DNA from: Candidatus Parvarchaeota archaeon
Lineage (GTDB): Archaea; Nanobdellota; Nanobdellia; JAFCGN01; DAOVEB01
Length of the DNA stretch: 33,999 nucleotides
Reading direction: 5' to 3'
NCBI GenBank assembly: GCA_030669205.1
Contig: DAOVEB010000003.1
Coordinates: 1-33,999, forward strand
The notes under the pieces are model-generated. The model had not been told where the DNA came from. It did not search any database and worked only from the letters and a program-made list of their open reading frames with translations. This document shows positions 5,281 through 20,226 of the stretch, one piece after another. Both the position numbers and the translations under genes were made by a program. Each line of letters opens with the position of its first letter. Position 1 is the stretch's first letter.

Positions 5281-5820
5281 ATGTCGGATATTCAAATCTT
5301 CGAAGAAGAGGACAAGATTTATTTAGCTAAACATAGGGAATACCCTTTATTTTTTATTGATTCATCTTCAATGTCTTATGTTTCCACCACAGAGAAAACA
5401 AAACAAAAACACATAAGAGAAGTTCTTGATGATGAGGATCTTCTTGAAGATATTGTTGATATAACGGGGATTGATAAATCAGGACTGACAACTTCTTTGA
5501 AAAACGAAGAGCCATTAATCTTGACAAAAAAAACTAATTGCCCCTATAGAAAACATGTCGGACCAAAAGTTTTCAAAGCTTGTGGAGGTTACGATCATAT
5601 CCTTTCCGCAACAACTGCTGCATGGGCTGTTGAAGGTTTTTTATTGGGCGTACCTTTAGCAGTTTTACCATCAATTTGGTTAGGCTATGCAGGAGACCCT
5701 TTTAGTTTCCTTGCAGGGATTCTTGCGGTTACACTCATTTTTTCTTTACAAGGAGCATACCAAGGAATGCAAAACAGATCTAAAAAGATGAATAATGAGC
5801 CGTTTTTTGATCTATTTTAA
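5281..5820 (+). CDS. hypothetical protein with C-terminal membrane segments
   Basis: 179 aa; acidic N-terminal half, then hydrophobic 'GFLLGVPLAVLPSIWLGYAGDPFSFLAGILAVTLIFSLQGAY'; TATA-like 'atatttataaatac' upstream. Confidence 0.65.
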   Translation: MSDIQIFEEEDKIYLAKHREYPLFFIDSSSMSYVSTTEKTKQKHIREVLDDEDLLEDIVDITGIDKSGLTTSLKNEEPLILTKKTNCPYRKHVGPKVFKACGGYDHILSATTAAWAVEGFLLGVPLAVLPSIWLGYAGDPFSFLAGILAVTLIFSLQGAYQGMQNRSKKMNNEPFFDLF

Positions 5821-5916: not shown

Positions 5917-6047
5917 CGCCGAGGACGAGATTCGAACTCGCGCCCGAAAAAATCGGACAGGCTCACTGGGTCTTTTTTTGGTAAAGCTTTCTTTCGCAAA
6001 GAAAGGTTTTTCCAGGCCTGCGCGTTAGACCACTCCGCCACCTCGGC
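5917..6047 (-). tRNA. tRNA-Ser (GGA anticodon) with canonical 37/38 intron
   Basis: Acceptor GCCGAGG/CCTCGGC with discriminator G; anticodon stem CAGGC/GCCTG with loop CTGGAA|A; long variable arm; T arm GCGAG-TTCGAAT-CTCGT; intron 5964-6009 (46 nt); mature length 85 nt. Confidence 0.95.
5964..6009 (-). other. tRNA-Ser intron (bulge-helix-bulge type)
   Basis: 4-bp helix CTGG/CCAG flanked by 3-nt bulges AAA and TGA, predicted cuts AA^A and TG^A; intron contains hairpin CTTTCTTT-GCG-AAAGAAAG. Confidence 0.85.
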
Positions 6048-10963: not shown

Positions 10964-11524
10964 CTATCTATCCTTTTTGTTTTCCGTCCAGTACTTCACT
11001 ATCCTCTCAACCAGCTCGCACTCCTGTTTTATTGTCAGGTATGAGGTGTCAATGATGAAGTTGTAGGGCCGCATATCTTCCAAGTAATCTATACCGTACA
11101 GCTTCTTGTATCTCTTCTTGTTTGACTCATCCCGTTCCTTATTGGTTCTCAGTGCCTCTTTGAACTGTTGTTTGTCGCGGCCACCGACTCTGGACGCCGC
11201 TATACGCGAGTCTACCTTGATGAAGAACGCGATGTCATAGTTGTCGACGAAGAAAGCAGAGATACGTCCTTGGGTGATGCAGTTTCCTTTCTTGGCCTCA
11301 GCTGCCATACGTCCATCTAACCTCTCGTCAAAACTGAGATCAGCTTCTGTGAGTTTATGCCAGCGTTGGAACTGTTTAGGCTCGTTGGAGTCATATCCAC
11401 TCTCGTCTGCCATTGTTCGGAAGATATCACCTGCTGATATAAACCGAAGGTTGAACTTCTCAGCTATATGCTTCCCTATTGTCGTCTTCCCAGAGCCACT
11501 CGGGCCGTCTATCACAACTATCAT
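10964..11524 (-). CDS. cmk: cytidylate kinase-like (archaeal Cmk), copy 1
   Basis: 'MIVVIDGPSGSGKTTIGKHIAEKFNLRFISAGDIFRTMADESG' P-loop and SAGDIFR motif. Confidence 0.88.
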   Translation of the reverse strand: MIVVIDGPSGSGKTTIGKHIAEKFNLRFISAGDIFRTMADESGYDSNEPKQFQRWHKLTEADLSFDERLDGRMAAEAKKGNCITQGRISAFFVDNYDIAFFIKVDSRIAASRVGGRDKQQFKEALRTNKERDESNKKRYKKLYGIDYLEDMRPYNFIIDTSYLTIKQECELVERIVKYWTENKKDR

Positions 11525-12063
11525 TGTATCACTTGGATTATGGTGTCCACTATTTTCTCAGTGTCTCTCTGCAAGAGGTTGGCAGTGTTTATGACAAAGT
11601 CGTAGCGAGAGACATCATTAGGGTTCACATTGTACTCACGCCTCACCCTCCGAAGAAAGGAACGCTCGCGCTCGATTGTGATGCGCAGGCTGTCTTTGAT
11701 TTTTTCGCGTTTTGCAATGCGCTCTGCAGCTATCTTAAGCGGAACGTTCAGAAATATCTTCACATCCGCCTTGCTTACAAAGTGGCCTGCAAGCCAGCCT
11801 TCAATGACACAGTTCCCTTTCTTTGCCTCAGCGACTATCTTCATGTCAACCTCTTTGTCTATCCGCCTGCTGAGTTCTGCATTCTTTTCAAGTTCCCTGT
11901 GAAAACGCAGGAACTCCTCACCTTTCGGCTCAAAGCCGTGCTCTTTTGCGATTTTGCGAAACATCTCACCTGCTGAAATGTATCTCAGTCTGTACTTTTC
12001 CGCGATGTGCTCTGCAAGCGAGGACTTTCCAGAACCAGGACGGCCTGAAATAATTATGAGCAT
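11521..12063 (-). CDS. cmk: cytidylate kinase-like (archaeal Cmk), copy 2
   Basis: 'MLIIISGRPGSGKSSLAEHIAEKYRLRYISAGEMFRKIAKEHG'; ATG at 12063; 4-nt overlap with copy 1. Confidence 0.88.
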   Translation of the reverse strand: MLIIISGRPGSGKSSLAEHIAEKYRLRYISAGEMFRKIAKEHGFEPKGEEFLRFHRELEKNAELSRRIDKEVDMKIVAEAKKGNCVIEGWLAGHFVSKADVKIFLNVPLKIAAERIAKREKIKDSLRITIERERSFLRRVRREYNVNPNDVSRYDFVINTANLLQRDTEKIVDTIIQVIQ

Positions 12064-12145: not shown

Positions 12146-13321
12146 ATGCCAGCACGCGTTATCATATTCACAGGCAAGGGTGGAACTGGAAAAACCACAA
12201 GTGCAGCTGCCACAGCACTGCTCTGCGCGAGGAAGGGTTATAAAACCTTGGTTATGTCGAGCGACCCCGCCCATTCACTCGCAGACTCATTTGACATGCC
12301 CATTGGCGGCGAGGTCAAGAAACTTATGGACAACCTTTGGGGCGTTGAGATAGACGCACACACAGAGATGCACAAAGAGTGGGGTACAGCCATTGCTTAT
12401 GCAAGACAGCTTCTCTCTGTTCAGTACGACGATGCTCTTGCTGGAGAGATTATGGCGATTCCTGGAATCGACGAAGTTTTCACGCTCCTGAAGATAAAAA
12501 AGTTCATCAACGACTATGACGTCATAATCCTTGACACAGCACCCACTGGTCACACACTCCGGATGCTCGCCCTGCCAGAGGCAGTAGGTGGTGCCGGCCA
12601 GAAGCTGATAGGTCTTGAGAAAAAGGTCACCAAGGTGCTGAAGCCATTTGAGGATATGGTTGGCGTCCCTCTTCCTGAATCAAGCACGTTCGATGAGACC
12701 GAAAAACTCTACGTCAGACTCATGGAGGCCAAAAACTTGCTTGCTGGCAAGAACACGACTGTACGCATTGTTCTCAACCCGGAAATCATGTGTATACGGG
12801 AAACCGAGCGCGCGATGACATTTATGAACCTCTTTGGCTTCCACGTTGACAGCGTGATTCTCAACAAAGTCCTCCCTAAGGAAGTAAAGGACCCTTACTT
12901 CGACAAGTGGAAAAAGCTGCAGAAGAAATACATGAAAGAGGTGGAACTGTCGTTCAAACCACTCTCAATAATGAGCATACCTCTTATGGAGACAGAAGTT
13001 GTAGGGACAAAACTGCTCGGAGACGTTGCGCGCGAGCTCTACGGGAAGAAGGACCCCACCACTATCTTCACCTCTGAGAAGCCGTTTGACATCGGCAAAA
13101 GAAAGGGCAAGTTCTACATCAGAATCAAGTTGCCGTTCACTAAAAAGGAGGATATAGACATCGAGGCCGCTGATGACAGGCTGATAATCAAGGTTGGTTG
13201 GTACAAGCGTGTGCTCACGCTACCGGCAGTCGTGGTGCGCCAGTCTGTGAAGAAGGCAGAGCTCAAGAACGGCTACCTCACTATAGTCTTTGAAGGGAAA
13301 AAGAAAGAAAAAAAGAAGTGA
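12146..13321 (+). CDS. ArsA/GET3 family ATPase with C-terminal HSP20-like domain
   Basis: 'GKGGTGKTTSAAATALLCARKGYKTLVMSSDPAHSLADSFD', 'DTAPTGHTLRMLALPEA'; C-term 'KFYIRIKLPFTKKEDIDIEAADDRLIIKVGWYKRVLTLPAVVVRQSVKKAELKNGYLTIVFE' (ArsA_HSP20-like). Confidence 0.94.
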   Translation: MPARVIIFTGKGGTGKTTSAAATALLCARKGYKTLVMSSDPAHSLADSFDMPIGGEVKKLMDNLWGVEIDAHTEMHKEWGTAIAYARQLLSVQYDDALAGEIMAIPGIDEVFTLLKIKKFINDYDVIILDTAPTGHTLRMLALPEAVGGAGQKLIGLEKKVTKVLKPFEDMVGVPLPESSTFDETEKLYVRLMEAKNLLAGKNTTVRIVLNPEIMCIRETERAMTFMNLFGFHVDSVILNKVLPKEVKDPYFDKWKKLQKKYMKEVELSFKPLSIMSIPLMETEVVGTKLLGDVARELYGKKDPTTIFTSEKPFDIGKRKGKFYIRIKLPFTKKEDIDIEAADDRLIIKVGWYKRVLTLPAVVVRQSVKKAELKNGYLTIVFEGKKKEKKK

Positions 13322-13384: not shown

Positions 13385-14335
13385 TCATCCCAATCCAAAC
13401 CTCTTTTTTATAAGAGTCACTGCATCTGAAAAACCAATCAACTTATCCACAGTGTCACCTTTCCCAGGTTTCCCACCTAACTTTTCATATACATCCTCAT
13501 CCACTATCCTAACTGCATCGGAGAAGTCACCAGTTGTCGACATGAAAATACCTTCTGTGCTGTCATAAAGTGGATAAGAGGCATATCTCGCTGGCACACC
13601 GTGTCCTGGATCCGCTTCTTCCCATCTCCTTGGACTTAAACAATAAATATCAACTGCTTTGGGGTTTGTCATTGACCAGCGGATGAACTCCTTGTGGAGC
13701 TTTCCCTCCACCCATGTCAATCCCTTGGGATACACATTCCTCCAGTCGCTTGGAACAATCGGTGTGATTTCTACCTTGTTCTGTATTTTCCCCTTTTTGA
13801 TAAGTAGGTCTTCTATCTCCTTTTTGACGCAAGATTCCAAGGTCCTGAGCTTTTTGACAACGCTTTTGGAGTCTAATCTCTGATAGCTCGAAATGAGCTC
13901 TTCTAGCTCCATTTGCTTTCCAGCAACTTCATCATCCAATGATGATATCCCATCCTTCATCTCTTGTATTTTCTTCTCTTGCTTTGTCTTGTATCTCGGC
14001 TCCTTTGGATTCATCCTGAAAAATGTTGTGACATGTGAGGGTTCGTCAAGCCATGCATTTGGACCCCTCATCACAACTAAACCAAAGTCGGGTTCAATCT
14101 CATATATTTCACCACTATTATAGCGGATACTTGGTCGACAGCGACAGTATTTGCACCATCTGTCGATTGATAATCCACCACCAAAAACATCTTTCACATC
14201 CGCTATCTTCCTCATTTTTTGGGTTTCGGGATTGAAGAAGCCGATAACTTCATACTTCAGACATTCACCAATCCTCCAATATTCCTTCTCCTTGAAGAAT
14301 CTGGAGACTCCTTCAGCAATCTCGTCCTTCACCAT
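13385..14335 (-). CDS. uncharacterised protein with central coiled coil and Cys cluster (orphan operon gene 3)
   Basis: 316 aa; 'DRWCKYCRCRP', predicted coiled coil 'QEKKIQEMKDGISSLDDEVAGKQMELEELISSYQRLD'; 3 nt from the upstream gene. Confidence 0.75.
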   Translation of the reverse strand: MVKDEIAEGVSRFFKEKEYWRIGECLKYEVIGFFNPETQKMRKIADVKDVFGGGLSIDRWCKYCRCRPSIRYNSGEIYEIEPDFGLVVMRGPNAWLDEPSHVTTFFRMNPKEPRYKTKQEKKIQEMKDGISSLDDEVAGKQMELEELISSYQRLDSKSVVKKLRTLESCVKKEIEDLLIKKGKIQNKVEITPIVPSDWRNVYPKGLTWVEGKLHKEFIRWSMTNPKAVDIYCLSPRRWEEADPGHGVPARYASYPLYDSTEGIFMSTTGDFSDAVRIVDEDVYEKLGGKPGKGDTVDKLIGFSDAVTLIKKRFGLG

Positions 14336-14338
14336 AGG

Positions 14339-14689
14339 TCATCCTCCTTTCAGACACTCCTTTGCAAGTTGCCTGCACCTTTCCATGGCCTCTGTATCAG
14401 AGACACTGCAAAGGACCTCCAGGTTCCTGAACCTCTGCTTTTTTACGAATCCGCGGCGGCCGATGATATAAGTCTCAGAGCGTACTAGATGATGTTTCGA
14501 TATCCTATCAAAGACGAAGTAAGTTTCTAGGTAACTTTGTCTGGCTTTGTAACCACATTCCACTTCCTCCACATGCGGTCTGACGAAGTCTTCAGGTGTT
14601 AGGTACACGGCTCTATGTTCTTCCTCCCAGGATAGTGTGGTACAGTTTGATATGTTGACACATATTTTCGGCTCCTTTTTCTTCCCCAT
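14339..14689 (-). CDS. uncharacterised 116 aa protein (orphan operon gene 2)
   Basis: Tightly spaced between the 305 aa and 316 aa ORFs; no family recognised. Confidence 0.7.
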   Translation of the reverse strand: MGKKKEPKICVNISNCTTLSWEEEHRAVYLTPEDFVRPHVEEVECGYKARQSYLETYFVFDRISKHHLVRSETYIIGRRGFVKKQRFRNLEVLCSVSDTEAMERCRQLAKECLKGG

Positions 14690-14690
14690 A

Positions 14691-15608
14691 CTACAACCTC
14701 TTCAGGGAGAACTCTATGTTGTCGACAGATACCTCTTCGTTTTCGTAGCCAACCCTTTTGTAGATTGATCTTCCGAATCCTTCATTGTCCTTGGACCACT
14801 CTTCGAAACATACATCACACACCTTCATTTGCTTGCTCCTGTCAAAGTTCCACAGATACCATTTTATATGAGGTGGCTTGAAGATGACTTTGTCATGGAT
14901 GTCTGGTATATTACTCTCTCCATTCTCAGCTTTCAATTTCACTAACTCCTCGAGATTGTGGAGATCCTTGAGGAAGGACTGTAGTTCTTTTTTAGTTTTT
15001 TTAACCTCATCAGAGAACTCTTCTGAATACCCCGACATCTCCTGCCTCACAAACTCGCGCTTCAGGCTGAACTTGAACTCGTAATCAGGTGCTTCAATCT
15101 CTGATATGAACACAAAGAACACGTCCGAAGAGCTTCCCCAGTCGTTGAGAACAGCAACCTTGCCTGATGGCACGCCACAATTGAAACATGAACATTCATA
15201 GTACCTTCCAAGTGGCACACCAATATAGTCAAGATGGAACCTCCTCGTACTGTCAGCATCCACAGATGTGAGATCAACGCCCTTAAGAAATGAGTTCACT
15301 TCTCCCAGGGTTGCCAGAATATCTGATGGTTTGTCGGTTTCAAAGTCATTGATGATTTTCTCCATCGCCTCTTTGTCCCACTTATCAAGTTTGGATTTTG
15401 ATTTGGAGAGCAAATCAAGCATCTTTTGTATTGGATGATATTCATAACTCTTGTAATAACTTATACCCTCATAATCACTACTGCTCTTAATTTTGTATTT
15501 TGAGGCGTTGAACAGCTTATGCCAATTGTGTACAGGATACCTGCCCCTGTTCAATTCCTCCTTGAAAAAAGCAAGATCATCCATCAAACAAGCAAGATTA
15601 TCCATCAA
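14691..15608 (-). CDS. uncharacterised protein with Zn-ribbon-like Cys pairs (orphan operon gene 1)
   Basis: 305 aa; 'YECSCFNCGVPSG...MKVCDVCFEEW' split Cys knuckles; start ambiguous (15608, 15605 or 15584). Confidence 0.75.
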   Translation of the reverse strand: MMDNLACLMDDLAFFKEELNRGRYPVHNWHKLFNASKYKIKSSSDYEGISYYKSYEYHPIQKMLDLLSKSKSKLDKWDKEAMEKIINDFETDKPSDILATLGEVNSFLKGVDLTSVDADSTRRFHLDYIGVPLGRYYECSCFNCGVPSGKVAVLNDWGSSSDVFFVFISEIEAPDYEFKFSLKREFVRQEMSGYSEEFSDEVKKTKKELQSFLKDLHNLEELVKLKAENGESNIPDIHDKVIFKPPHIKWYLWNFDRSKQMKVCDVCFEEWSKDNEGFGRSIYKRVGYENEEVSVDNIEFSLKRL

Positions 15609-15686
15609 ACCACCTCAAAAAATAATTGTTGACCATCCTTGGTTGGTGAGACATCCATATTTATAATAATTTTCTTAACAGTTAAT

Positions 15687-15697
15687 TTTATAAATAT
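15687..15697 (+). promoter_or_regulatory. TATA-box-like element upstream of the CARF-wHTH gene
   Basis: 'ttttataaatat' in the divergent intergenic region. Confidence 0.4.
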
Positions 15698-15743
15698 GAA
15701 ATATTTACAATTACTGGAAAGTGAAAAGAAACAGTTGTCTGCC

Positions 15744-16478
15744 ATGAAGATACTGCTCTCTCCGGTGGGGATATATGTGGGCCGCGTACTCAAAGGTATC
15801 TCAAAAACCAAGCCGGATAAGATATATCTTTTTGTTTCCAAGCGCGAGGAAGACAGCGACTATACTAAGGAGTGGAGCGTAGCGACCGAGATGTATGCAA
15901 AGGATATCATGAAGAGGATATCCTTATTCTACGGCAGGTCCGACATCAAGGTTGTTTCCGAAAAGCTTGGAAATTATTCGAGGATGCTCAAGATAATGAT
16001 AAATCTGGTCATAAAGCATAAGGACGCAGAGTTCCTTATAGACATCACCTCTGCGCGTCGCGGATTTGAGATGGCTGCAATAACGTTGGGTATGTTCTTC
16101 ACCAACGTTAGGTGTTTCTACATTCCGCCGAAGGAGCCCTTGATGCCATCTGACTACTCAAGGAAGGTCATAAAGGATGAGGGCGGCGAGCCGGAGACCA
16201 TAACTACACCTAAGGTTGACTTTTCCGAGCTACAGAAAAGACCACTGAAGGACATTTTGGTTGTACTCAGTTTGGACTTAAAGGGAAGGTCAGACAAATT
16301 TATTGCTCTTCTCAGAGCTCTTAAGTGGGATGAGACCAGGTCCAACGTCATAAGATTGAGTAAGATGATAAAGAAACTTGAGAACTATGGTTGTGTCCGC
16401 ACAAAGCGCTTCGGCAGGGAGAAGTCGGTTGAGCTCACACTACTGGGCGAGTCGCTTGCAGTGGCACTTGGTTCATGA
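15744..16478 (+). CDS. CARF-like Rossmann domain plus C-terminal wHTH (HFX_2341/DUF6293- or Csa3-like)
   Basis: 'KILLSPVGIYVGRVLKGI', 'KIYLFVSKR', 'AEFLIDITSARRGFEMAAITLGMFFTNVRCFYIP', then wHTH 'LKDILVVLSLDLKGRSDKFIALLRAL...IRLSKMIKKLENYGCVRTKRFGREKSVELTLLGESLA'; ATG 15744 favoured because the TATA (15687-15695) abuts the ATG at 15696. Confidence 0.75.
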   Translation: MKILLSPVGIYVGRVLKGISKTKPDKIYLFVSKREEDSDYTKEWSVATEMYAKDIMKRISLFYGRSDIKVVSEKLGNYSRMLKIMINLVIKHKDAEFLIDITSARRGFEMAAITLGMFFTNVRCFYIPPKEPLMPSDYSRKVIKDEGGEPETITTPKVDFSELQKRPLKDILVVLSLDLKGRSDKFIALLRALKWDETRSNVIRLSKMIKKLENYGCVRTKRFGREKSVELTLLGESLAVALGS

Positions 16479-16516
16479 CCGAAATTGTTATTACCTGAAG
16501 TTCTTTGCTGCTTGTT

Positions 16517-17512
16517 ATGGGACCCACATTTCGTCTCCATGCCTTTCTTGCCTCGCTGTTTCTAGTGGTTCTGTCCACTGGTTGCACGCAACCGCAGGGG
16601 TGGCAGATTCAGAACGGTCTTGGGATGAGATACGGCATATTCATAATGGATGCAGGTGGCACCAACGTGGAGCAGATATATGGAAGTGAGACAAAGATAA
16701 CCAATGCCCTTGCGTCACCTGACGGAGCAAAAATTGCCTTTTTTGAGTTAGCGGGCCAGACAGGCGACCTTCAGAACATAAGCACATCAGAGATAGCCCT
16801 GATAAACATCGATGGCACAGGTTATATGAAGCTCACAGACAACAACTGGATGGACTTCCAGCCCATATGGTCTTCTGACGGGAATGAGCTCTTGTTCGTG
16901 TCAACTGGGGGGATTCCCGCAGGCACAGACATCTATGTCATGGATCCGGATGGCAACGTCCTGAGGCAGCTAACAGACACGGTTGGCATATCAGAGGCAG
17001 ACCCGGACTGGAAGTGTGGGAAGGTCGCCTTCACCAGAAACGGCACAATCTGGATCATGGACGAGGACGGCTCCAACGAACAGCAACTGACAGATCCTCC
17101 TGGAAGAGGTATTGATGTGGGTGTGCAGTACCCCCTCGGCGACTATGACCCAAACCTTTCGCCGGACTGCTCAAAGGTCGCCTTCGAGAGGCTGGCCGGA
17201 ACAGGTATGGATGTCAATGGTGTGAACCTTGGTGACTATGACCTGTATGTGCTTGAACTGTCCACGGGCATAGAGCATGACATAAGCCAAAATCCAGCAG
17301 CTGACCTGTTGCCAGAGTGGTCACCTGACGGCACCAGACTGATTTTCCTTCATCTGAGCAATGTGGCCGCTGACCTATATGACATCTACATGGTCAACGC
17401 GGACGGTACAGGAAGGACAAAGGTCACTGGGGACGATCCAAATAACTTCGTTGAGGACAGCTGCACCTGGTTTGGCAACAGAATCCTCTTCACAGCAGAG
17501 TTTTATGAGTGA
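16517..17512 (+). CDS. TolB-like beta-propeller lipoprotein (PD40/WD40-like repeats)
   Basis: Signal peptide with lipobox 'FLVVLSTGC'; repeated 'PIWSSDGNELLFVS', 'DIYVMDPDGNVLRQLTD', 'IWIMDEDGSNEQQLTD', 'PEWSPDGTRLIFL'. Confidence 0.85.
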   Translation: MGPTFRLHAFLASLFLVVLSTGCTQPQGWQIQNGLGMRYGIFIMDAGGTNVEQIYGSETKITNALASPDGAKIAFFELAGQTGDLQNISTSEIALINIDGTGYMKLTDNNWMDFQPIWSSDGNELLFVSTGGIPAGTDIYVMDPDGNVLRQLTDTVGISEADPDWKCGKVAFTRNGTIWIMDEDGSNEQQLTDPPGRGIDVGVQYPLGDYDPNLSPDCSKVAFERLAGTGMDVNGVNLGDYDLYVLELSTGIEHDISQNPAADLLPEWSPDGTRLIFLHLSNVAADLYDIYMVNADGTGRTKVTGDDPNNFVEDSCTWFGNRILFTAEFYE

Positions 17513-17550
17513 TGCCAATATTTTTAAATCATTCATATTGTTTCTTTATA

Positions 17551-18129
17551 GTGATAACATACAATGAGGAACTTTCGGAGTTTGCAGGGAAGCAGGCGGG
17601 AAAGTGGAAGTCAAAAGGGAATTATTCAATCTACTCATTCGAGAACTTCAAGGACCTGTCGGAAAAAAACAACCTCCTCTTTGTAATGTCGGCTGTCAAC
17701 GGGTTTCCGCCAGCTTTTTTGGCAGTATTTGGCGATGAAAACGAGATCTATGTCCATCAGGATACTCTTGACTCTCTATCTGTTGATGGAGCAAGATGTC
17801 CGATTAAACATGAGATCGTCGAGAACTTTCTGAGGAAAGCCCTTGAGATGAGTCCGTATTCAAACAAGGAGGACAACGAGCTGGTACATCCAATAGTTGA
17901 TATGCTCTCCCACGATGAACAGTATGAAACTACCTTTTACAAAATGGCTTCATCCTCTAGTTCATATCTGACAGTTGCTGTCCTGAAAGGCGAGATAACT
18001 GTGAGATCATCTAATGGGAATATTTTTTCTTTCATAAAAGAGTCAGCAGAGAGATGCCGTGAAGACCTGTTCTGCAGATTTTCCACTGCCAGGACATTAT
18101 TGGATATTGTTAATGAAGAACACAAATGA
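17551..18129 (+). CDS. hypothetical protein
   Basis: GTG start at 17551 favoured, with TATA-like 'tttttaaatc' at about 17520; no family recognised. Confidence 0.6.
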   Translation: MITYNEELSEFAGKQAGKWKSKGNYSIYSFENFKDLSEKNNLLFVMSAVNGFPPAFLAVFGDENEIYVHQDTLDSLSVDGARCPIKHEIVENFLRKALEMSPYSNKEDNELVHPIVDMLSHDEQYETTFYKMASSSSSYLTVAVLKGEITVRSSNGNIFSFIKESAERCREDLFCRFSTARTLLDIVNEEHK

Positions 18130-18176: not shown

Positions 18177-19679
18177 ATGAAAACAGAACTCAAGGTTGAG
18201 TTCCGCCTCAGCAACCCGCTGCCGAAAGGCGCAAGGAACGAGGTAATCGGCTTCCTTGAGGGCAGGGTATCCGCTGTTGACAGGGACGCGAAGGCAGCCG
18301 GCTTTGAGGTGGCGGGCTCGAAGATAACATTTTCCCTCTCATCAACTTTAATGGCACATGGCACAGTGCTCCGCGTGCGCAAGCCGCTGGCAGAATTTCT
18401 GGGCAAGAAGTACAAGACCGGCTTGAGGTCTACTGTTGTAAAGGGCTACAAGATAGTTCTTGAAACAGAGAAGCCGAAGGAAAGGTTCGTGCTCCCGTTC
18501 TGCAGGATAAACTATACCAAGGACGGGGTGAGGTTCCGGCTTGACGATATGGACGACCTGGCCCTGAACAGGAACTATCCAAACCGGATTGTGAAGCGGT
18601 TCAAGACAAAGGTCAACGCCCAGCGAATCAAGGGCAAGACCATGACGCAGCGAGTGATTCGCGAGAGCAGGAAAAGGCTAAGCAGGTACGCTCACAGGAG
18701 GGATATAACCAAGGACCTTATCAAGAGGGGATGGCTCCGCGAGTTCGCCCAGGGTGTCTGGACAGTCATGCCGCCGTTTGCAGCGCTCATCAAGGCCATA
18801 CAGAACCTCTGCATCGACACCATAGCAAAACCTCTTGGTTTCCAGGAGGTGATTGTGCCGAGGTTAATCCCGCTCGAGGTTCAGAGGAAGAAAGGACAGC
18901 TCAGCGGAATACCCAACGAGATATTCTGGGTCTGTCCGCCTGCCAGCAGGGACCCAAAAGAATTTGAGTGGTATAGGGACCTTGTTGAGATAACGGGCGA
19001 GACCCACCCTGACGAGCTGAAAAAGCATTTGAGGGAGCCCATGTTCTCACTGTCATACGCGCAGTGCGAGCCCCTCTACGACGTCTTCAGAGGTGAAATC
19101 GTCGACGCAGACGAGCTGCCGTACAAATTCTACGACGTCAATGGTCCGACCTGGAGATGGGAGGGTGGCGGACTCAAAGGCTACGAGCGGCTCAACGAGT
19201 TCCTCCGCATCGAACTTTTCTATATCGGCACAAAGGAGCAGTTGATTGGGATTCGCGACAGAATCCTAGCCAAATCAGAGGAAGTGATGGACAGTGTCTT
19301 TGACGTGCAATACAGGGTTGACGCGAACGTGCCTGTTTACCTTGAGCACGCAGGTCAGGCGGAGGAGGAAGCTGACTTTGTGAAGACCTATGACCTCACG
19401 GCAATCCTTCCGTTCAAAACAGTGAGCAGGGACGAGGCAGAGCTGGAAATAGCGAGTTACCACGTGCATACCGACTTCTATATGGACAGGTTCCACATCA
19501 AGGAGAGAAAGAACCGGGAAATCTGGACTGGCTGCGCCGGAATAGGTCCAAGCCGGTGGGCTTATGTCTTCCTGCTACGCTGGGGCTTTGACTACTCCAA
19601 GTGGCCAAAGGAAATCAGGAAGTACATTGGCAGCAAACTTCCGGACGTGCCAAGGATGGTAACATGGCCAAAGAAGTAA
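18177..19679 (+). CDS. serS: seryl-tRNA synthetase, methanogen-type (type 2, zinc-dependent)
   Basis: N-terminal domain not the canonical coiled coil; class II core 'QLSGIPNEIFWVCPPASRDPKEFEWYRDLVEITGETHP', 'LSYAQCEPLYDVF', 'EIWTGCAGIGPSRWAYVFLLRWGFDYSKWP' with Cys/Glu/Cys Zn-ligand arrangement. Confidence 0.93.
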   Translation: MKTELKVEFRLSNPLPKGARNEVIGFLEGRVSAVDRDAKAAGFEVAGSKITFSLSSTLMAHGTVLRVRKPLAEFLGKKYKTGLRSTVVKGYKIVLETEKPKERFVLPFCRINYTKDGVRFRLDDMDDLALNRNYPNRIVKRFKTKVNAQRIKGKTMTQRVIRESRKRLSRYAHRRDITKDLIKRGWLREFAQGVWTVMPPFAALIKAIQNLCIDTIAKPLGFQEVIVPRLIPLEVQRKKGQLSGIPNEIFWVCPPASRDPKEFEWYRDLVEITGETHPDELKKHLREPMFSLSYAQCEPLYDVFRGEIVDADELPYKFYDVNGPTWRWEGGGLKGYERLNEFLRIELFYIGTKEQLIGIRDRILAKSEEVMDSVFDVQYRVDANVPVYLEHAGQAEEEADFVKTYDLTAILPFKTVSRDEAELEIASYHVHTDFYMDRFHIKERKNREIWTGCAGIGPSRWAYVFLLRWGFDYSKWPKEIRKYIGSKLPDVPRMVTWPKK

Positions 19680-19686
19680 TCTTTAT

Positions 19687-20226
19687 ATGGTAGTAAATTC
19701 CCGTTACTGCTTGATGGCAGACAACAACAGTGGAAGATGCCTAACTCTTGAGGATATGTACCCGCACATCATCGGCTTTGTGGATGGTTTTAGTGCCCCA
19801 AGTCATGATGGGAAACTTTCAGAGATTCTGAGCCAAGAACTTTCACGACACTATAAAGGACTCCTATGTATGTGCAATCAGATGGACTATGAACACCATC
19901 ATAAACAATTTATGTCGGAGATAGAAAAGGTTTCAGTTGACATCGGTCCGGATGGATTTAGAGTTTACGTGAAAGTAAAGGATGAAGTAAAAAGTATAGA
20001 CCGTGCTGATGACTATGACGCTTTTTATGGCGTTATAAACAATACAATCCATGAAGGCGACTTTGAGCGTCTGTTGGCAAAAAACCCGCAGAAACTTGAA
20101 GAGCCACATACGTGGACCCATAAAAGAGGTACTGAACTAGTTCCTGAAAAGGTTCGGGACAGGCAGGGGAATCTGAGTTACAACATCTTCCTCGTTAGAG
20201 ATAGTAGACTCGTGAAGGCGAATTAG
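19687..20226 (+). CDS. hypothetical protein
   Basis: 179 aa ORF; alternative ATG at 19714; no family recognised. Confidence 0.55.
   Translation: MVVNSRYCLMADNNSGRCLTLEDMYPHIIGFVDGFSAPSHDGKLSEILSQELSRHYKGLLCMCNQMDYEHHHKQFMSEIEKVSVDIGPDGFRVYVKVKDEVKSIDRADDYDAFYGVINNTIHEGDFERLLAKNPQKLEEPHTWTHKRGTELVPEKVRDRQGNLSYNIFLVRDSRLVKAN

Follow-up and report, generated by a model that had tools for sequence, protein, structure and literature searches.

A divergent CARF-winged-helix protein encoded opposite an orphan operon of three genes in a nanoarchaeal genome

Introduction

The best-known role of CARF domains is that of sensors in type III CRISPR defence. In Csa3 (TIGR01884 / PF22662; e.g. Saccharolobus solfataricus Csa3a), a CARF domain is joined to a MarR-like winged helix (wHTH), and the S. 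solfataricus protein holds cA4 through motif 1 (hydrophobic-G-F-N/D-x-polar-F) and motif 2 (small-small-G-hydrophobic-R) (PMC8844856). A second archaeal CARF-wHTH protein, MM_0565 of Methanosarcina mazei, is encoded at a CRISPR-Cas I-B locus and has a role beyond CRISPR; it is dimeric and binds its own AT-rich promoter, with a preference for AT-rich sites (PMC7465815), and no divergent orphan operon has been described for it. The HFX_2341/DUF6293 family (PF19810 + PF22665) is a further relative, with the same domain order as the protein described here. Outside CRISPR, a precedent for a CARF ligand comes from RtcR, a bacterial, sigma-54-dependent protein that senses 5' tRNA halves with a cyclic phosphate (PMC7790460).

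Here we describe a CARF-wHTH gene from a small archaeon of the Nanoarchaeota (genome assembly 911 kb, 87.6% complete) that is transcribed away from three orphan genes. The locus lies in a stretch of 33,999 nucleotides, which was analysed as a whole and is hereafter called the window. A sequence-only reading had proposed the four genes as a candidate signalling or defence module.

Results

The regulator gene and the orphan operon are real genes

The four open reading frames were confirmed at the positions collected in Table 1, with the regulator gene on the plus strand and the three orphan genes, P0002, P0003 and P0004, opposite it on the minus strand. P0003 begins at 14689, just past the end of P0002 at 14691, and P0004 at 14335, just past the end of P0003 at 14339. 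The locus is flanked by arsA (12146-13321) on one side and by a TolB-like propeller gene (16505-17512) on the other, and translation genes surround it. The tight packing, the divergent orientation and both flanks agree with the sequence-only reading in coordinates and gaps. With a codon-usage score derived from ribosomal and other core genes of the window, we found that all four frames scored 2.8-6.8 standard deviations above base-shuffled copies; since the three minus-strand genes also carry strong Shine-Dalgarno (SD) sites, these are real genes and not chance open reading frames. The SD site of P0004 (GGAGGATGA) overlaps the end of P0003, as in a translated operon. The first operon gene had been read as encoding 305 aa; the gene stands, but its start is most likely the ATG at 15605, which follows the SD site by 5 nt, and not the TTG at 15608. 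The regulator start at 15744 is backed by alignment to its orthologue, and is further favoured because the regulator's TATA box would overlap the next upstream ATG (15696).

Table 1. Features of the regulator gene, the facing operon and the gap between them (window coordinates; z, codon-usage score in standard deviations above shuffled copies)
Feature	Position	Strand	Basis
CARF-wHTH regulator, 244 aa	15744..16478	+	Pfam, PADLOC, AlphaFold2 model and PDB fold search; codon-usage z 6.1
Orphan gene 1, P0002, 304 aa	14691..15605	-	SD GAGGTGG 5 nt upstream; codon-usage z 6.8
Orphan gene 2, P0003, 116 aa	14339..14689	-	SD GAGGTTG; codon-usage z 2.8
Orphan gene 3, P0004, 316 aa	13385..14335	-	SD GGAGGATGA; codon-usage z 4.4
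TATA box TTATAAAT, orphan operon	15659..15666	-	motif count; ATG begins 54 nt on
TATA box TTATAAAT, regulator gene	15688..15695	+	motif count; ATG begins 49 nt downstream
Inverted repeat CATATTTATAA / TTATAAATATG	15656..15698		11/11 bp around a spacer of 21 nt; divergent promoters in mirror image
Candidate operator TTAACAGTTAA between the TATA boxes	15675..15685		sole window match, 0.60 expected at <=1 mismatch, for a motif picked after being seen

The operon proteins match no known family

P0002 carries two sets of cysteine pairs (CxCxxC and CxxC) with a likely coiled coil between them, and P0004 combines a WCKYCRC cysteine cluster with a likely central coiled coil. A single-sequence fold of P0003 gave a model without confidence (pLDDT 34). 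Searches of Pfam, NCBIfam, PHROGs, PADLOC and PDB sequences gave no significant match for any of the three proteins, no relative was found in 270-285 genomes of the class, in IMG/VR or in phages, and P0002 and P0004 had no relative among plasmids. The earlier description of the three as proteins that could not be placed in a family is therefore borne out across the databases searched. A weak match to P0004 in another genome (G109) proved to be a coiled-coil stretch within a 777-aa frame and was not taken as a relative. P0002 and P0004, similar in size, cysteines and coiled coil, were also considered as possible paralogues; their BLASTP match (E 0.009) covers the coiled coil only, and paralogy was rejected.

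The regulator combines a CARF domain with a predicted winged helix

The regulator is divided into a CARF domain (residues ~1-131), a linker (~132-160) and a C-terminal winged-helix region (~165-243). Its CARF domain scores above the cut-off of the Pfam model HFX_2341_N (PF19810; 31.7 bits, cut-off 30) and matches PADLOC CARF3 profiles (E 2.8e-11). We then compared a two-sequence AlphaFold2 model (mean pLDDT 81.2) with the PDB: all 43 matches at E <=0.001 were CARF proteins, as were all of the best 50 fold matches listed (among them Csm6, Card1, Cam1, Can2, Cad1 and ring nucleases; E 5e-7 to 3e-3). A viral structure library gave partial, scattered matches only. Following the CARF domain, the model places helices at 166-177, 186-192 and 199-215, strands at 218-223 and 226-231, and a last helix at 233-243. 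This H-H-H-E-E-H order is predicted to form a winged helix, and fits the wHTH of Csa3 as described (PMC8844856). Profile matches, fold matches and the winged-helix order together establish the CARF-wHTH identity of the product at the level of sequence and model, in line with the earlier proposal of a CARF-like Rossmann sensor with a C-terminal wHTH.

The protein is a divergent newcomer to an already known type of regulator. It can be placed only as a remote member of the HFX_2341/DUF6293 family, as its winged helix stays below the cut-off of DUF6293_C (PF22665; 19.2 bits, cut-off 27). It shares with Csa3 the CARF and MarR-like wHTH layout and an expected dimer; however, it matched neither Csa3 model (PF22662 or TIGR01884), even at E 5.

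Residues that contact cA4 in Csa3 are mostly replaced

At the position of motif 1 the regulator reads VGIYVGR and its orthologue VGVYKNR, such that only the hydrophobic residue and the glycine are kept from Csa3 (GF(N/D)xxF in Csa3, GIYVGRV in the regulator). At motif 2 (TSARR and TSSRK, respectively) the basic residue is kept and the glycine and hydrophobic residue are replaced. The altered motifs G(I/V)Y..R and DITS(A/S)R(R/K) are shared by both proteins, while most other nanoarchaeal CARF-wHTH proteins found keep GWD-/GYE-type and STG-type motifs. By sequence comparison, the cA4-contact residues of Csa3 are mostly replaced in the regulator. Searches of the regulator's own genome for Cas1 and for the Cas10 palm found neither, and in contrast to Csa3 the gene has no CRISPR-Cas genes nearby, none lying within the window. 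As neither was found, the ligand is unlikely to be cA4 made by a type III system, although ~12% of the genome is absent from the assembly.

Mirrored TATA boxes lie in the intergenic region

The divergent genes are separated by 138 bp (15606-15743). This gap contains a TATA box, TTATAAAT, for each direction, a motif with six copies in the window where 0.54 would be expected (none of 100 shuffles reached six). The two boxes form the inverted repeat CATATTTATAA/TTATAAATATG, and when the gap was shuffled by dinucleotides, 9 of 1000 copies had a perfect inverted repeat of such length. Between the boxes lies TTAACAGTTAA, a candidate operator that we consider suggestive only. We infer that the two promoters are too close for independent use by the transcription machinery, so that a protein bound between them should affect both.

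The sole close orthologue faces a different orphan operon

Among 285 genomes of the class, a close orthologue was found only in Nanoarchaeota DPANNHV_H2.bin.89 (G017; 49% identity, E 1e-70), and a scan of one genome per species returned the same sole hit. This protein, P0005 (JAAOXS010000021.1; L008:7794-8504, L013:8001-8711), is 48-49% identical over its full length and scores 33.0 bits against PF19810 (cut-off 30). Like the regulator, it stands head to head with an orphan operon, the pair P0007 (180 aa as listed) and P0008 (206 aa), at a distance of 94 bp; the gene after this pair is presumably nreA. The facing genes differ, as P0007 and P0008 have no recognisable sequence kinship to P0002-P0004. 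A resemblance between P0002 and P0007 seen by eye (NWxKL...DYxGIxY) was rejected, since local alignment was no better than shuffled (p 0.30). Kinship between P0004 and P0008 (p 0.026, in a helical stretch) was not accepted, and a match to P0008 in G241 was treated as chance, since it falls within an unlike frame of 580 aa. The 94-bp gap holds TTGTTAA three times (shuffle p 0.001); this half-site was looked for in the 138-bp gap and was absent, and an operator common to both gaps is not supported.

A conserved module of the four genes is not supported: we found the operon in no other genome searched, and the sole close orthologue faces different genes. Co-occurrence of the regulator and the three genes was likewise not found in 270-285 class genomes, a weak test given that the operon genes lack relatives. 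In the two nearest genomes, no other genes of the window were found beside serS. More distant CARF-wHTH genes of the phylum lie beside radical SAM genes (G006), or beside transketolase together with a protein of no recognised type (G245); a further 'CARF' match (G276) sits among clustered glycosyltransferase genes and appears to be a chance match. In genomes from two nanoarchaeal families, G216 (L009:5989-9137) and G201 (L025:69-3450), CARF-wHTH genes adjoin those for thymidylate synthase, dihydrofolate reductase and dTMP kinase (thyA/DHFR/tmk). Both match PF19810 and Csa3_N above cut-off, the G201 gene being a fragment, and it is possible that they encode a CARF regulator of dTMP synthesis outside CRISPR.

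Discussion

With confidence a little above even, we favour a one-component, ligand-sensing CARF-wHTH regulator that controls its own gene together with the divergent orphan operon. A CARF-wHTH dimer would bind the AT-rich stretch between the mirrored TATA boxes, perhaps at TTAACAGTTAA, and would control both transcription units together. Given a site that overlaps or abuts the BREs expected for both promoters, in the simplest case it would repress them until a nucleotide-type ligand bound the CARF dimer. The three orphan proteins, with their cysteine clusters and coiled coils, may act together. Support comes from a CARF domain recognised by both profile and fold, a winged helix in the model, mirrored TATA boxes of a motif clearly enriched in the window, and a head-to-head layout with an orphan operon that is repeated at the sole close orthologue. 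By analogy, MM_0565 offers the nearest tested precedent. Against it, the arrangement is found in two genomes only and with different facing genes, the TTGTTAA half-site of the orthologue's gap is missing here, the mirrored repeat may be just two TATA boxes placed back to back, the cA4 motifs are mostly replaced, and a Cas10-type source of cyclic oligoadenylate was not found in the genome. The earlier suggestion that the protein regulates the operon is plausible from the gene arrangement and the mirrored promoter.

Alternatively, the regulator may act elsewhere, as a global or metabolic regulator, and merely adjoin orphan genes that are unrelated recent gains. We regard this as possible but doubtful. 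MM_0565 and the thyA-linked nanoarchaeal relatives suggest such a role, CARF-wHTH genes elsewhere in the phylum have quite different neighbours, and so does the orthologue. The operon is also lower in G+C than most of the window (0.416-0.462 against ~0.48-0.50) and has no relatives, and other orphan genes interrupt the window's conserved genes too. Yet the two promoters, back to back and with only 21 nt between their TATA boxes, could hardly be regulated independently, and the regulator gene is itself slightly low in G+C (0.463) and comes close to the operon in rarity, so that all four genes may have arrived together. Far less probable is a CARF domain that senses RNA ends or another stress-made oligonucleotide and controls an RNA- or translation-related operon: the RtcR precedent, the translation genes around the locus and a pocket unlike that of Csa3 would fit, but the operon proteins have no sequence link to RNA enzymes, and RtcR is a bacterial protein dependent on sigma-54.

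A defence module, in which the CARF domain would sense a cyclic nucleotide made on infection and switch on three effector proteins, is improbable. Most CARF domains sense cyclic oligoadenylate in type III CRISPR signalling (PMC12669027), and archaeal defence systems and mobile elements are known to come from fast-evolving clusters of orphan genes ('dark matter islands'; PMC4158269). However, neither Cas1 nor a Cas10 palm was detected in the genome, the cA4-contact residues are mostly replaced, PADLOC defence profiles gave no significant match for P0002-P0004, and no recurrence beside defence genes was seen. The sole SMODS/CD-NTase-type match in the genome fell below cut-off and reads as a tRNA CCA-adding enzyme. 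The sequence-only proposal of a defence module consequently finds no backing in the genome or in the defence-gene libraries. Also rather unlikely is a CRISPR-independent CARF-wHTH switch, in an ultrasmall archaeon, that responds to a nucleotide other than cA4 and governs a cassette of orphan stress or defence proteins with rapid turnover, the switch staying the same while its cargo differs between lineages. A divergent CARF-wHTH protein that is paired with changing orphan operons, in a nanoarchaeon where neither Cas1 nor Cas10 was detected, would be a sign of CARF signalling outside CRISPR; the weight of this is modest, as it comes at present from one locus and one orthologue.

Other features of the window

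Further family-less genes of low G+C (0.36-0.43) interrupt conserved gene order at 5281-5820, 17509-18129 and 19687-20226 (+). Genes for two archaeal (d)CMP kinases lie in tandem and overlap (10964-11524 and 11521-12048, -), both above the TIGR02173 cut-off (118 and 124.5 bits; cut-off 102). The serine--tRNA ligase at 18177-19679 (+), also present in two genomes of the order, is best matched by the rare methanogen-type models NF002120 and TIGR00415 (below their cut-offs), and matches the common type weakly. A 131-nt tRNA at 5917-6047 (-), called by Rfam and not by ARAGORN, has a long variable arm, and its anticodon region is interrupted by an intron-like insert. Lastly, a gene for a DUF6390 protein (1347-2195, +; 103 bits) lies between an EamA-like transporter frame and the gene for RNA polymerase subunit D.
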